Part shown: one piece after another, positions 49,175 through 53,918 of the stretch
How positions within the stretch are numbered: the first letter of the stretch is position 1
Layout of the letters: the number at the start of each line of letters is the position of its first letter
Origin: Rhizobium sp. R634
GTDB taxonomy: Bacteria > Pseudomonadota > Alphaproteobacteria > Rhizobiales > Rhizobiaceae
NCBI RefSeq assembly: GCF_002211305.1
Contig: NZ_LOKW01000002.1
Coordinates: forward strand, 230,974 to 294,973
Direction: 5' to 3'
Length of the DNA: 64,000 bases
Notes under the pieces: model-generated
Databases searched by the model: none
What the model saw: the letters and a program-made list of their open reading frames with translations, nothing else
What the model was told of the DNA's origin: nothing
Position numbers and translations under genes: made by a program

Positions 49175-50077
49175 CTATCCGAGATCGATCACGACGATTT
49201 CCGGCGGCACGCCGAAGCGAACCGGCGCGATGGAGCAGCCGAGGCCGCCGGAGACGATGATATGACGCCCCTCCTCGACGATGTGGCCATAGGCGTAGCG
49301 ATTGCCGTAACGCGAGGGGACGACCGGTGAACGGCCGAGGAAGCGGATCTGTCCGCCATGCGTGTGGCCCGACAGCGTCAACGAGACGCGCTCGGGCACG
49401 CGCGGAAAGATATCGGGCTCATGGGCAAGCAGGATGACGGGTGCGTCGTCGGTGACCTGGGCCATGGTTCCATCAAGATCGTCCAGGCCGAGCATGCGCG
49501 TGCGGCCCCATTTCCTGCCGGGCAGCAGCGCCAGCTGATCTTCCAGCCCCGCGAGCCAGAAGCCGTGACCATCCTTTTCCAGTCGGACTGCGCGATTGCC
49601 GTAGACCGGAATCCCGACGCCGGCGAGCGCCCGGTGTCCGAAAGTTTCCATCCCGCCGTTCTTCTGGGCAGTCCTGTCTTCCCACCAATCGTGATTGCCC
49701 ATGATCGCGTGGACGCCGAGAGGCGCCTGCAGGGTGGCGAGCGCCTTCGACCATTGGCTCGAATGCACATATTGGGTCACCATGTTCATGCCGGCGGCGT
49801 AATCGCCAAGCAGGACGGTGACGTCACCTTCGAGTTCATTGGCCCTGCGGCAGATCGCGGTGATGCGATTTGCCGACATCCAGGGTTCGCAGGCATGGAT
49901 ATCGGCGAGCGCGACGACGCGGAGCTTCAGCCCCGGCGTCCATCCGGGCGGCGTCAGCTGGTAGCGGGCGATGCCGGGCCTTGCCAGCGGTTCATAGGCG
50001 AAGGCGTAACCGCCGAGCGACATGACGCCTGCGATACCGCCGCCAAGAACCTTGAAGAATCCGCGGCGGGTAATCAC
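49175..50077 (-). CDS. Tat-exported metallophosphoesterase (YkuE-like)
   Basis: 300 residues. The N-terminus ITRRGFFKVLGGGIAGVMSL is a twin-arginine signal. The calcineurin-like metal motifs DIHACEP, GDYAAG, GNHDWW, AHEPD and SGHTHGGQ are all present. YkuE-type enzymes are cell-wall or UDP-sugar phosphodiesterases. The start is GTG at 50077, directly abutting the ruvB stop (TGA then GTG), which suggests coupled translation with ruvB; no ATG is near. Confidence 0.88.
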   Translation of the reverse strand: MITRRGFFKVLGGGIAGVMSLGGYAFAYEPLARPGIARYQLTPPGWTPGLKLRVVALADIHACEPWMSANRITAICRRANELEGDVTVLLGDYAAGMNMVTQYVHSSQWSKALATLQAPLGVHAIMGNHDWWEDRTAQKNGGMETFGHRALAGVGIPVYGNRAVRLEKDGHGFWLAGLEDQLALLPGRKWGRTRMLGLDDLDGTMAQVTDDAPVILLAHEPDIFPRVPERVSLTLSGHTHGGQIRFLGRSPVVPSRYGNRYAYGHIVEEGRHIIVSGGLGCSIAPVRFGVPPEIVVIDLG

Positions 50078-51118
50078 TCAGTCGTCCTCCTGAAACAGCC
50101 GGAACTGCGCAGCCTCCATTTCCTTGGGCGGTTGCATTCCGAGATGTTTCCACGCGATTGCGGTCAGAACACGGCCGCGCGGCGTGCGCTGAATGAAACC
50201 CTGCTGGATCATATAAGGCTCGATGATGTCCTCGATCGCGTCGCGCGGCTCGGAAAGACCGGCGGCGATGGTTTCGATACCGACCGGGCCGCCGCCGAAA
50301 TTGACGGCGATCATGTTAAGGTAACGCTTGTCGAGCTGGTCGAAGCCGACATTGTCGACCAGCAGCCGCGTCAGCGCCTCGTCGGCGATCTCGCGGGTGA
50401 CGGCCTCGGCTCTTGCCACCTCGGCGAAGTCACGCACGCGCCGCAGCAGCCGGCCGGCGATGCGCGGCGTGCCGCGGGCGCGTCTGGCGATCTCGCGGGC
50501 GCCCTCTTCGGTCATCGGCAGGTTCATCAGCCGCGAGCCGCGGCGCACGATCAGTTCCAGCTCCTCGACGGTATAGAAGCTGAGCCGCACCGGAATGCCA
50601 AAGCGGTCGCGCAGCGGCGTCGTCAACAGGCCGAGACGGGTGGTTGCGGCCACCAGGGTGAATTTCGACAGGTCGATCTTCACTGAACGGGCGGCAGGGC
50701 CTTCGCCGATGATGAGGTCGAGCTGGAAATCCTCCATGGCTGGATAGAGGATTTCCTCGACGGCCGGGTTGAGGCGATGGATCTCGTCGATGAAGAGCAC
50801 GTCGCGCTCCTCGAGATTGGTCAGCAGCGCGGCGAGATCGCCGGCCTTGGCAATGACGGGACCCGACGTCGAGCGGAAATTGACGCCGAGCTCCTTCGCC
50901 ATGATCTGTGCCAGCGTCGTCTTGCCGAGGCCGGGCGGGCCGACGAAGAGCACGTGGTCGAGCGCCTCGCCGCGGTTCTTCGCCGCTTCGATGAAGATCT
51001 TGAGATTGGCGCGGGCGTCCGCCTGGCCGGTGAACTCGTCCAGCGATTGCGGGCGCAGCGTGACATCAAGGTCTTCTCCCCGCTTTTCCGGCGATATCAG
51101 GCGGGCGGGTTCGCTCAT
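50078..51118 (-). CDS. ruvB: Holliday junction helicase RuvB
   Basis: 346 residues with Walker [10 protein letters not shown] near 62-70, Walker B FIDEIHR, the sensor GATTR-equivalent AATTRLG and the arginine finger region, then the winged-helix domain [19 protein letters not shown]. It drives branch migration with RuvA. The ATG overlaps the stop of an upstream PIN-toxin gene (ATGA), so ruvB translation is probably coupled to the toxin rather than to ruvA as in the usual arrangement. Confidence 0.97.
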
Positions 51119-51513
51119 GAAAGAAGTTCCATTCCAGGTATGATTTTTGCGGCTTGGGCATCGAATGTCTTGGTTGTCACGCAGCCGGCGTCACGGTTAC
51201 GAAGAGCGATGAAGACATCTGCAAATTCCGCATTCGTCCGCAGCATGATTCCGAGCGTTTCCTCGACTACTCTTTCATCTTCAAGGATCAGATCGGCCGA
51301 GTCCAACAAATCCGAAATCGCCTCCATGATCTGTTCTCTCTTCAGCTTGATCCGTTGTCTTAGGAACCATGCGCATTCCATCAGTGTGATGCAGCTAATA
51401 TAGCCAGGCGCCGTATCGGAGAGGCTCCCAAAGAGCGCTGTGACTTTCTCCGTCTGGACGGCGTCGTCTTTCAGGAGGAAGCGCAGCAGAAGATTAGTGT
51501 CGAGGCCAATCAT
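51115..51513 (-). CDS. vapC: PIN-domain VapC toxin (second module)
   Basis: 132 residues with the PIN acidic residues in [13 protein letters not shown] (D5), [10 protein letters not shown], and [15 protein letters not shown]. VapC toxins are ribonucleases neutralised by the cognate antitoxin. Its ATG overlaps the antitoxin stop (ATGA) and its own stop overlaps the ruvB ATG (ATGA). The base composition of the module is visibly more A+T-rich than the flanking ruv genes, a sign of transfer. Cognate antitoxin is directly upstream. Confidence 0.88.
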
Positions 51514-51770
51514 CCTGCACTATTCACATGGTCGGCGATGGCTTCACCGATAGCCTCATCCATTTCCTTTAAAGTGATCGTCGGCCGATTCGGATCGTGA
51601 AACTTGCCTGCGAGGTCGATAGCGCGTTTGTTCTTGGCTTTCATAACGATTTCGCCATCGCGATTGATGTAACGGATCCTGTCGCCAGATTTCAGATTCA
51701 GCAGTTCACGAACTTCCGCCGGGATTGTCGTCTGGCCTTTCGATGTCATCGTACCATAGTAGATATTCAT
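51510..51770 (-). CDS. vapB: AbrB/SpoVT-type VapB antitoxin (second module)
   Basis: 86 residues with an AbrB swapped-hairpin N-terminus (GTMTSKGQTTIPAEVRELLN, LKSGDRIRYI) that binds DNA, and a C-terminal tail (TLKEMDEAIGEAIADHV) expected to block the toxin. GGAGA precedes the ATG. A spaced inverted repeat lies in its promoter. It is transcribed in the direction of the ruv operon, between ruvA and ruvB. Confidence 0.88.
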   Translation of the reverse strand: MNIYYGTMTSKGQTTIPAEVRELLNLKSGDRIRYINRDGEIVMKAKNKRAIDLAGKFHDPNRPTITLKEMDEAIGEAIADHVNSAG

Positions 51771-51777
51771 ACGGATC

Positions 51778-51803
51778 TCCTTACCATTCGAGTTTAGTAA
51801 GGA
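51778..51803. promoter_or_regulatory. Candidate operator of the second VapBC module
   Basis: TCCTTAC (51778-51784) and GTAAGGA (51797-51803) are exact inverted copies with 12 bases between them, 8-33 bases upstream of the antitoxin start codon and overlapping its ribosome site. This is where VapBC complexes usually bind for autorepression. Confidence 0.5.
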
Positions 51804-51824
51804 ATTGTGATATATTCAAGGAAG

Positions 51825-52439
51825 TCACCGGGCCAGTTCCTTCAAACCCAGCCGGATCAGCTTGGCGCTGTCGGCTCCTTCGCCGGCCGTCTTCATCGCC
51901 GCGGCAACGGCATTTGCCGCTTGGTCCCTGCTGTAACCGAGGTTGGTCAATGCGGAGACCGCATCGGCAACCGGTGCGGCAGCGACACCTTCGCCGAGTT
52001 CCTGCTTGAGGGCGATATTGATCGCTTCCCCGGCATAGGCCGGCGCCCGGTTCTTCAGTTCGGTGACGAGGCGCATCGCCACTTTCGGGCCGACGCCCGG
52101 TGCGCGAGAGACGGCGGCGCGGTCCTGCAGGGCGATCGCATTGGCGAGTTCGCCCGGCGTCAGCGTCGAGAGCACGGCGAGCGCCACCTTGGCGCCGACG
52201 CCCTGGACGCTCTGCAGCAAGTTGAACCATTCCCGCTCCAAGGCGCTCATGAAGCCGAAGAGCTTCAACTGATCCTCGCGCACATAGGTCTCGATGAAGA
52301 GCACACAGGCTTCGCCGGCCGAGCCAAGCTTGGACAGGGTGCGGGCCGAGCAATAAGCGACGTAGCAGACGCCGTGCACATCGACGAGCACATAGTCTTC
52401 GCCGATCTCGTCTATGGTGCCTTTCAGCTTGCCGATCAT
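51825..52439 (-). CDS. ruvA: Holliday junction binding protein RuvA
   Basis: 204 residues with the OB-fold start [20 protein letters not shown], tandem helix-hairpin-helix motifs ([35 protein letters not shown]) and the C-terminal domain III ([20 protein letters not shown]) that contacts RuvB. It clamps the four-way junction. The ATG is 12 bases after the first toxin gene's stop, and its stop is 54 bases before the second antitoxin gene, so it is isolated from both ruvC and ruvB by toxin-antitoxin genes. Confidence 0.96.
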
Positions 52440-52451
52440 GGTCGCGGTCTC

Positions 52452-52868
52452 TCAGGGGTGCGTTTCGGGGGAAATGATGTCCAAATCAGGGAAGTAGGAA
52501 CGGTATCGCGCGCTATCGCGAGTCAGGAGCCGGTGCGATCGAACGAGGGCATGCGCTCCGATGAAGAAATCCGGTAGGGTGCGCTCGCGCAGGCCGCCGC
52601 TTCTTCGGTATTGCGCATGCGCCATGCCTGCTCGATAAGCGGCGGAGAACGGCAGGGCCTCACGGACCAGATTTAACCGCGACAGGAGAAAGACCAGAGT
52701 TTCCTCGCGCGGGCTCACGCTTGCCAGTTCCGCCCACACGACCGGCGTCATGATGAATTGCGAATCCGGCCGCAACGCGCTCAAGGCGCGTGCGGACCAT
52801 TCCCTGAAGGGATTATCCGGACCGAAGATATCGATGAAGACATTCGTATCAACGAGGACCGAGGTCAT
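52452..52868 (-). CDS. vapC: PIN-domain VapC toxin (first module)
   Basis: 138 residues with the PIN start SVLVDTNVFIDIFG (D8), the second acidic position in VVWAELASV (E47), and LPDFFIGAHALVRSHRLLTRD. It is expected to be a ribonuclease inhibited by the antitoxin whose gene overlaps its 5' end by 20 bases. It lies between ruvC and ruvA and ends 12 bases before the ruvA ATG. It is not close in sequence to the other toxin of this operon. Confidence 0.88.
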   Translation of the reverse strand: MTSVLVDTNVFIDIFGPDNPFREWSARALSALRPDSQFIMTPVVWAELASVSPREETLVFLLSRLNLVREALPFSAAYRAGMAHAQYRRSGGLRERTLPDFFIGAHALVRSHRLLTRDSARYRSYFPDLDIISPETHP

Positions 52869-53112
52869 CGCGTGGTCCCCTCAACCATTCCATGAATTCA
52901 TCGGTGGTCATGCCGCTGGTGTCGAGGGTCCCGCTCATGCTGCCGAGCCAGGATTCAAAATCGTCCTGCGACGGTTTCGTGCGGCTGGATAGAACGACGA
53001 GACGGGCACCTCTTTCGTCGGCAATGAAATCCACTTCGGATCCTGGCCCGATCTTCAAACGGTCCCTGATGTCCTTGGGAATGGTCACTTGACCTTTTTC
53101 GGTTACACGCAT
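52849..53112 (-). CDS. vapB: AbrB/SpoVT-type VapB antitoxin (first module)
   Basis: 87 residues: AbrB DNA-binding start MRVTEKGQVTIPKDIRDRLK, then GPGSEVDFIADERGARLVVL, and a C-terminal toxin-binding region (MTTDEFMEWLRG). It overlaps the toxin gene by 20 bases. A perfect 9-bp inverted repeat covers its ribosome site. The module lies 54 bases downstream of the ruvC stop, in the operon direction. Confidence 0.9.
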   Translation of the reverse strand: MRVTEKGQVTIPKDIRDRLKIGPGSEVDFIADERGARLVVLSSRTKPSQDDFESWLGSMSGTLDTSGMTTDEFMEWLRGPRDDLGPR

Positions 53113-53113
53113 G

Positions 53114-53134
53114 GTAATACCTCTCAGGTATTAC
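53114..53134. promoter_or_regulatory. Operator of the first VapBC module
   Basis: GTAATACCT (53114-53122), CTC, AGGTATTAC (53126-53134) is a perfect 9-bp inverted repeat starting one base upstream of the antitoxin ATG and covering its GAGG ribosome site, as expected for VapBC autorepression. Confidence 0.7.
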
Positions 53135-53166
53135 TTATCATTGAATTGGAACAAGTCAAGAACAGA

Positions 53167-53676
53167 TTAGCCGGCCAATGCCTGGCGCATCCTAGTGCCG
53201 CCGCGATTGTGGGCATGGCAAATGGCGATCGCCAAGGCGTCGGCGGCGTCATCGCCCTTGAATTCGACCTTCGGCATCAGGATCTTCAACATCATGTGAA
53301 TCTGCTGTTTTTCGCCATGGCCGACGCCGATGACCGCCTTCTTCACCGCGTTCGGGGCATATTCGGAGACCGGCAATCCGGCGCGGGCCGGCACCAACAT
53401 GGCGATGCCGCGGGCCTGGCCGAGCTTCAGGGTCGCCACCGCGTCCTTATTGACGAAGGTCTGTTCGACGGCAGCTTCATCCGGCTTGTAAGCGTGGACG
53501 ATCTCGGCAAGGCCGTCATGCAGCTGGCAGAGGCGGGAGGCGAGGTCCATCTCGCCGTCTGATGTCACCGTGCCTGACGCCACGAACTTCAGCGAATTGC
53601 CCAATGTATCTATGATTCCCCAGCCGGTGCGGCGAAGGCCGGGATCGATGCCGATGATGCGAATCGTATTTTGCAT
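53167..53676 (-). CDS. ruvC: Holliday junction resolvase RuvC
   Basis: 169 residues with the RNase-H-like acidic residues in [16 protein letters not shown] (D11), AAVEQTFVN, and the C-terminal [14 protein letters not shown]. It cuts four-way junctions symmetrically. The ATG at 53676 begins the ruv group on the minus strand; upstream lies a divergent MCP gene rather than yebC, the usual neighbour. The C-terminus is intact despite the toxin-antitoxin module 54 bases downstream. Confidence 0.96.
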
Positions 53677-53918
53677 GGTTCAACCTATAGCGACTGCGAA
53701 ATAAGTGCCATCGATAAGTGAACAAAACAAAAACACCAATGGTTTTAGGGCGCGCCATTTACCGCGAATTAAAAGAGATGCCTGAATTCTAGTTGATCGA
53801 ATGTGAGAGGAGCTTCATCCCGCAAAGATTAAGCTCCCGATGTTCTGTTGATAGGCCAGCCGGCAGGGACGCACCGCGTGCCCAGGCTGGCGGCGCCGTT
53901 CGGAAGGGTTCGTTGTAT

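Follow-up and report, generated by a model that had tools for sequence, protein, structure and literature searches.

Two vapBC modules inside the ruvCAB operon of Rhizobium sp. R634 and a putative SOS-controlled, apparently exchangeable toxin-antitoxin cassette

Organization of the ruvCAB locus

In Rhizobium sp. R634, two vapBC toxin-antitoxin (TA) modules lie inside the ruvCAB operon, one in each gap between its genes. We analyzed this locus within a window of 64,000 nucleotides (positions 230,974 to 294,973 of contig NZ_LOKW01000002.1, assembly GCF_002211305.1), to which all coordinates refer. The minus strand carries, in this order, ruvC for the Holliday-junction resolvase (53167..53676), vapB1 (52849..53112), vapC1 (52452..52868), ruvA (51825..52439), vapB2 (51510..51770), vapC2 (51115..51513), and ruvB (50078..51118), all seven of them intact. 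Hereafter, slot 1 denotes the ruvC-ruvA gap and slot 2 the ruvA-ruvB gap. In both modules the antitoxin gene comes first and overlaps the toxin gene, by 20 bases for vapB1/vapC1 and by 4 bases for vapB2/vapC2. The start of ruvA follows 12 bases past the vapC1 stop, and the vapC2 stop shares the four bases ATGA (51115..51118, minus strand) with the ruvB start.

All seven products passed the curated Pfam cut-offs (RuvC, RuvA domains, RuvB domains, antitoxin, and PIN). VapB1 (87 aa) and VapB2 (86 aa) matched the MazE/AbrB-type antitoxins with E values of 2.7e-11 and 1.8e-9, and the toxins VapC1 (138 aa) and VapC2 (132 aa) matched PIN domains with E values of 4e-11 and 1.4e-8. The Ruv products passed the NCBIfam cut-offs of TIGR00228 (ruvC), TIGR00084 (ruvA), and TIGR00635 and NF000868 (ruvB); their matches to NF000711 (ruvC) and NF011194 (ruvA) were below cut-off. 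The acidic positions of the PIN domain are kept in the homologs surveyed below: D7 and E47 in 84/84, D100 in 82/84, and D118 in 83/84 of the slot-1 VapC, and D5 in 64/64 and E46, D99, and D118 in 63/64 each of the slot-2 VapC. An earlier note on this DNA had described this gene order on one strand, with two complete modules of AbrB antitoxin and PIN toxin, co-oriented with the operon and leaving the ruv frames intact, and the open reading frames (ORFs), Pfam, and NCBIfam agree with it.

The predicted structure of VapC1 is a good match to a solved VapC; the packing of the AlphaFold model of VapC2 is unreliable. A sequence search of the PDB returned no match for VapC1, VapC2, or the VapC1 profile, and a single weak PIN-like match for the VapC2 profile. 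The whole R634 genome holds 13 PIN genes.

Distribution of the modules

The occupancy of both slots was surveyed in three sets of genomes, whose loci carry L numbers here. Set 1 comprised the 80 best named ruvA loci (RuvA 83-99% identical), mostly from Rhizobium and related genera and including one bin labelled Arenimonas; loci were scored from ORFs and iterated profiles, and a vapC of 115 aa or more was counted as full. Set 2 held one genome per genus from 56 genera of the own family, the Rhizobiaceae, among the matches listed, and leans to the nearer genera, with 65 of 394 genomes yielding no score. Set 3 represented 51 other families of the order with one genome each, and RuvA was found in 51/51.

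A full vapC was present in slot 1 of 57/79 set-1 loci, in slot 2 of 36/80, in both slots of 24/79, and in neither slot of 10/79. The genera of set 2 gave comparable figures (slot 1, 25/52; slot 2, 25/55; both, 14/52). Among the other families, a full vapBC was found once in slot 1 (1/47, L223) and once in slot 2 (1/40, L168), and ruvC and ruvA shared a 4-base overlap in 25/47. Because of this occupancy, the two-slot arrangement is typical of the own family and sporadic in other families. The comparison across relatives that the earlier note had proposed therefore speaks against recent insertion. No significant correlation was found between the occupancy of the two slots (median p 0.688).

The placement of the modules in the operon exceeds chance. 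Over the 838,202 bases of set 1, all 96 PIN and all 93 AbrB matches (E <= 1e-4) fell within the ruvC-ruvB stretch; none were found outside it with these profiles, which were built from slot proteins and could let unlike PIN families escape. Some empty slots bear marks of former occupation, as 9 of 27 testable empty slot-1 gaps contain pieces of the cassette leader or tail (e.g., L040 and L050).

Full modules are doubled in two genomes, in slot 1 of L123 and in slot 2 of L132, where the ruvA-ruvB gap of 1485 bases contains two complete slot-2 modules in tandem. The corresponding gap of L057 (1568 bases) also contains two modules, in the first of which vapC is broken, and a short LITPET stretch encoded in the spacer resembles the tail of slot-1 VapC; this may be a trace of exchange between the slots, or chance.

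A LexA-type box precedes the slot-1 module

Between the ruvC stop and vapB1, a motif scan identified GTTCTTGACTTGTTC (53149..53163, minus strand), a putative LexA site that matches GTTCN7GTTC exactly, the alphaproteobacterial LexA operator given in the accessible text of two publications (PMC12700426, PMC3323433). The earlier note overlooked this box; its range of 51115..53134 covers both modules and leaves the box out. By eye, GTTCTTGACTTGTTC overlaps a -35-like TTGACT, and next downstream, just upstream of vapB1, reading of the sequence revealed the palindrome TAATACCTGAGAGGTATTA (53115..53133), a likely VapBC1 operator whose TAATAC..GTATTA core is present in 36/45 class I leaders (classes are defined below). 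The leader of vapB2 contains an inverted repeat, CCTTAC-N12-GTAAGG (51779..51802), likely to be the VapBC2 operator, and CTTAC..GTAAG recurs in 33/60 slot-2 leaders. A second LexA-type box with one mismatch, GTTTTTGTTTTGTTC (53720..53734, minus strand), was found by motif scan and reading of the sequence 58 bases upstream of ruvC. Boxes with up to one mismatch occur upstream of ruvC in 118/135 loci compared with 10.6 in shuffles, and exact ones in 3/135 compared with 0.3.

The main survey included 83 occupied and 53 empty slot-1 loci. Searched from 40 bases inside ruvC to at most 120 bases past its stop, the exact box was found in 83/83 occupied loci but only 4/53 empty ones. A scan of the leaders alone detected it in 82/83 occupied loci, against 0.32 in shuffles, and in 7/53 empty gaps taken whole; the locus gained with the wider window was L037, whose ruvC reads on beyond the usual stop. 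The 15-mer is identical in 76 of the 82 boxes from the leader-only scan. For 12 independent pairs of loci drawn on the RuvCAB tree, the box went with the module in 10.7 and against it in 0.0 (median p of the sign test, 0.001).

With up to one mismatch, the 15-mer has a single copy in the 6.73 Mb R634 genome, at 53149-53163. Off-slot sisters of the slot-1 VapC were found in 10 genomes, and the box was absent from both strands of the 9/9 fetched 4-kb loci; four of these nine showed a clear TAATAC..GTATTAC palindrome. The lexA gene and the recA region of the genome served as positive controls: an exact motif lies 47 bases ahead of the likely lexA start, and the recA region contains a motif with one mismatch. 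The slot-1 leader thus carries the motif of the alphaproteobacterial SOS (LexA) regulon, from which LexA binding is predicted.

We extended the search to 397 genomes of the order, 37 of which contained the 15-mer and none the reversed control. Among 29 out-of-family sites, 20 were fetched: 14 were located in the ruvC-ruvA gap, immediately ahead of ruvA or of a TA, and six away from ruv (L199, L200, L202, L203, L207, and L208, several of them promoter-like by eye). Two of the 14 ruv sites precede a full TA, namely VapBC in L196 and a Phd antitoxin with a PIN toxin in L204, and three precede antitoxin pieces (L194, L206, and L211). The piece in L206 was judged by eye from its VapB-like tail and had no Pfam match, and that in L211 (= L262) was a weak profile match. 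In the set-3 census the box was found at the ruvC-ruvA junction of 2/47 genomes, both with antitoxin relics and the same genomes as L206 and L211.

Slot 1 of L204, which belongs to another family of the order, encodes a Phd-type antitoxin and a PIN toxin whose stop overlaps ruvA by 4 bases; judged from the sequence, it is an independent TA in the same ruvC-ruvA socket behind an identical 15-base box. In slot 1 of L194, a lone AbrB protein overlaps ruvA by 4 bases, and in slot 2 of L150, VapB is joined to a VapC-like tail (recognized by eye) with a 4-base overlap with ruvB. Both ORFs appear to be relics that retain the overlap.

In slot 1 of L123, a class I and a class II module stand in tandem, each with a separate box. 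Ahead of the second lies a copied ruvC tail that matches over 44/52 bases including the box; its 25-base coding part alone beats 500/500 shuffles. The tandem reads as a direct footprint of one TA allele arriving beside another.

VapC lineages and apparent exchange of slot-1 classes

A tree was built from the 148 slot VapC and, among the 11 further PIN proteins of R634, the 8 that the profile matched. All 84 slot-1 sequences fell on one side of a branch (support 97/99), and the 64 slot-2 sequences formed the other group, VapC2 of R634 among them. Because two long-branched PIN proteins of the own genome fall inside the slot-2 group, its exclusiveness is less sure. As the earlier note had also argued, neither module is a recent copy of the other, since slot-1 and slot-2 VapC are in separate groups. 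Searched in 31 genomes, slot-1 profiles scored 204-234 bits at ruv and 137-154 bits at an off-slot sister in 10 genomes, with nothing in between. With slot-2 profiles, eight ruv copies scored 139-196 bits, a broken copy in the genome of L126 scored 75 bits, and no match elsewhere exceeded 100 bits.

Slot-1 VapC comprise class I (n = 46, including VapC1 of R634), class II (n = 36), and two sequences in neither class. Among twelve aligned sequences, identity to VapC1 was 58-75% for class I and 42-48% for class II. Single linkage at 60% identity yielded slot-1 clusters of 40, 38, 3, 2, and 1; slot-2 VapC formed 12 clusters at 50%. VapB had the class of its VapC in 79/79 modules, and VapB1 is likewise class I.

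The distribution of the classes was compared with a RuvCAB protein tree of 136 loci, which represents one locus only. The tree needs 23 class switches. Class I required 33 changes compared with a shuffled mean of 37.8 (22/500 shuffles as low), and class II required 25 compared with 31.4 (0/500). Even when only the well-supported branches are counted, class I needs 17 and class II 13 label changes against all other loci. Six pairs of relatives with opposite classes were compared at the DNA level. Their ruvC genes are 88-96% identical; identity then drops to 43-52% across vapB and most of vapC, rises to 73-87% over the final 45 bases of vapC, and reaches 89-94% in ruvA. This suggests that the slot-1 cassette is exchanged between species like a cartridge.

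The median within-class ratio of non-synonymous to synonymous substitution rates (dN/dS) was 0.06-0.07 for class I and 0.09-0.10 for class II, compared with 0.05 for ruvC, 0.04 for ruvA, and 0.01-0.02 for ruvB. These values indicate that VapC1 and VapB1 of slot 1 are under purifying selection. The permissive site offered as an explanation in the earlier note is too weak a description, as each slot keeps its own VapC lineage and the slot-1 modules are conserved by selection (median dN/dS 0.06-0.10).

Proposed coupling of the modules to ruvAB

A terminator scan found no terminator-like site in any junction of the locus, and its sole minus-strand match was inside ruvA. The 4-base overlap of vapC onto ruvB is present in 58/64 slot-2 vapC. 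Translation coupling as read from ribosome-binding strength was dropped as a candidate: the ruvA difference fails pairing by relatedness, and ruvB shows none.

Published insertion sequencing (INSeq) of R. leguminosarum 3841 bears on the same question. Its RL3987-RL3988-ruvA-ruvB corresponds to the slot-1 cassette of L049 (class I), and slot 2 has no module there. According to the accessible text of that study (PMC11406972), root attachment requires each of vapB, vapC, ruvA, and ruvB at all three pHs; vapC, ruvA, and ruvB are grouped as required at every stage, and vapB, with fewer than 6 sites, is classed as attachment-progressive. A term count found neither ruvC nor RL3986 in the main text, and the accessible text is silent on the polarity of the transposon. 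The requirement is read there as a role of VapBC itself in attachment. Since vapC is needed although it is a toxin gene, the requirement is best explained by polarity onto ruvAB, and as far as the accessible text goes, the INSeq pattern is independent support for read-through from vapBC1 into ruvAB.

The earlier note had proposed that RuvA and RuvB synthesis depends on transcripts that also carry toxin genes. This is indirectly supported by the terminator-free junctions, the frequent overlap, and the INSeq pattern in the accessible text; the coupling itself need not start at ruvC.

Discussion

We propose that the slot-1 cassette, consisting of the LexA-operator match, vapB, and vapC, and apparently exchangeable as a whole, probably sets vapBC1 and ruvAB under shared SOS and VapBC1 control. 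LexA would bind 53149-53163 and block the -35 element, and VapBC1 would bind the palindrome upstream of vapB1, such that full firing would require both LexA cleavage and a low VapBC level. DNA damage would open the first lock (LexA) and antitoxin turnover the second (VapBC1), and damage would likely induce the toxin pair along with the repair genes. The slot-1 transcript would run through vapBC1 and ruvA and on to vapBC2 and ruvB, a second, VapB2-gated start would also serve vapBC2 and ruvB, and ruvB would be reached by termination-reinitiation at ATGA. VapC is an RNase by family and may slow translation while Holliday junctions are processed. Homologous recombination in the flanking ruvC and ruvA would carry the classes from strain to strain, with the incoming cassette replacing a resident whose antitoxin fails to cover the incoming toxin.

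Several observations weigh against this proposal. Modules are often lost, with slot 1 lacking a full vapC in 22/79 set-1 loci, and are therefore dispensable. In neither vapB leader did a consensus scan detect a complete sigma-70 promoter (across 6 kb it gave 2, with 1.4 expected). The ribosome-binding site of ruvA is weaker in occupied loci (p 4e-8, unpaired), a difference that is lost once loci are paired by relatedness (median p 0.375), and ruvB shows no difference. Slot 2 has no LexA-type box: that of R634 lacks it, and the exact box was found in 0/63 slot-2 leaders. The full slot-1 vapBC of L223, in another family, also lacks the exact box. The classes are not sharply cut, as all 84 slot-1 VapC fall into one cluster under single linkage at 50% identity, and only 31/132 inner branches of the single-locus RuvCAB tree are well supported. 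Finally, 9 of the 14 out-of-family ruv sites have the box before ruvA with no visible TA, so the promoter marked by the box may belong to ruvAB and not to the module.

These nine lone boxes fit the strongest alternative, selfish anchoring. On this account the box is an old internal SOS promoter of ruvAB, and vapBC settled between it and ruvA because that site tolerates insertions, which are then difficult to remove cleanly; the toxins would have no repair role, and the coupling would be a by-product. Frequent loss that leaves scars or relics (e.g., L040, L050, and L109) and the different TA behind an identical box in L204 fit this account. In the own family, however, few loci without the module have the box (4/53); in the other families, where ruvC and ruvA overlap by 4 bases in 25/47 genomes, it is present in only 2/47, both with antitoxin relics (one judged by eye); and the second cassette of L123 was copied together with its box. 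Our own view shifted on this point: the box was first regarded as the module's own, then as an old ruvAB promoter on account of the out-of-family lone boxes, and was finally reweighed on the order census and the L123 tandem. We lean toward the view that box and vapBC travel jointly by recombination through ruvC and that lone boxes are remnants, and regard selfish anchoring as a serious but rather unlikely explanation.

A defence function is unlikely. Here, the slots would be polymorphic anti-phage or anti-plasmid TA loci whose class turnover reflects rare-allele selection, and ruv would merely be a conserved site of landing and exchange. The nearly random spread of class I over the RuvCAB tree (22/500 shuffles as low; class II, 0/500), the 12 slot-2 clusters at 50% identity, and the doubled modules of L123 and L132 are consistent with such turnover. 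The low within-class dN/dS is nevertheless unlike an arms race, and the LexA-type box is left unexplained.

Still less probable is that the pairs are domesticated spacer-regulators, in which VapC is no longer toxic and the pair only sets ruvAB expression via a repressor and translation coupling. Remnant ORFs do keep the vapC tail with the 4-base ruvB overlap (L051, L052, and L150, the last with its tail identified by eye), and a lone AbrB protein overlaps ruvA in L194, but the catalytic acidic residues are kept in 82-84/84 slot-1 and 63-64/64 slot-2 VapC.

That this strain or species recently acquired the two modules by independent insertions, a variant of the repeated insertion named in the earlier note, is very improbable: slot 2 lacks a full vapC in 15/19 of the nearest named loci (L031-L049), yet L033 carries both modules at 92-95% identity and the same VapC groups occupy both slots across genera. 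For slot 1, recent insertion is refuted by the family-wide survey, which found both slots occupied across the family; for slot 2, it is possible that the allele of R634 is a fairly recent arrival by exchange.

The individual components of the proposed cassette have precedents, and VapBC modules, LexA-controlled TA modules, and an interrupted ruvCAB with an internal LexA site are each already known. The R634 modules share the gene order, PIN acidic residues, and DNA-binding antitoxin type of VapBC type II TA (MazE/AbrB-type VapB, PIN-domain VapC), and differ in their fixed position inside ruvCAB, the LexA-type box in the slot-1 leader, and the exchange of alleles in place. The DNA-damage-inducible, LexA-controlled TA of Caulobacter is reportedly HigBA, a stand-alone module. 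Like slot 1, it has a LexA-type site in the TA promoter; unlike it, slot 1 contains VapBC, whose promoter would also read into ruvAB.

The ruvCAB operons of Vibrionaceae offer another parallel. They are described, in the accessible text, as having a secondary LexA-controlled promoter before ruvAB and as being interrupted by one or two inserted genes, and LexA sites are also reported for the alphaproteobacterial ruvCAB promoter (PMC3323433). The R634 locus shares an internal LexA-type site before ruvAB and the inserted genes, whereas TA genes and class exchange are not named in that text and both the motif and the bacterial class differ. In R. leguminosarum 3841, RL3987-RL3988 have been named VapBC and noted just before ruvA (PMC11406972), a record of vapBC at this place in one strain; the accessible text mentions neither the box, the second slot, the family-wide spread, nor polarity as a cause. 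Our literature search, which most subscription journals lay outside, retrieved no description of TA in both ruv slots, of the box before them, or of class exchange.

More tentatively, the ruvCAB locus of Rhizobiaceae could be a two-socket exchange locus, in which SOS-driven VapBC cassettes behind ruvC gate branch migration through LexA and VapBC, pause growth during repair, and are traded between species as balanced alleles via the very recombination that the operon serves. The locus would tie a TA family of disputed chromosomal role to the SOS response and to a core operon, and would exemplify old TA alleles that are shared across species at a single fixed position of the chromosome. The proposal is open to test with natural occupied, emptied, and class-swapped relatives. 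It also calls for caution, as phenotypes of vapBC insertions at this locus may be polar effects on ruvAB.

Other features of the locus

In slot 2 of L216, L232, L204, L139, L198, and L156, we observed an ORF of ~145-190 aa with the look, by eye, of a small membrane protein; it starts 4 bases inside the ruvA stop, and some of these ORFs overlap the ruvB start. On the minus strand of R634, the ORF that follows ruvB (49175-50077) has a GTG start placed directly at the ruvB stop, and the operon may continue past ruvB into it.

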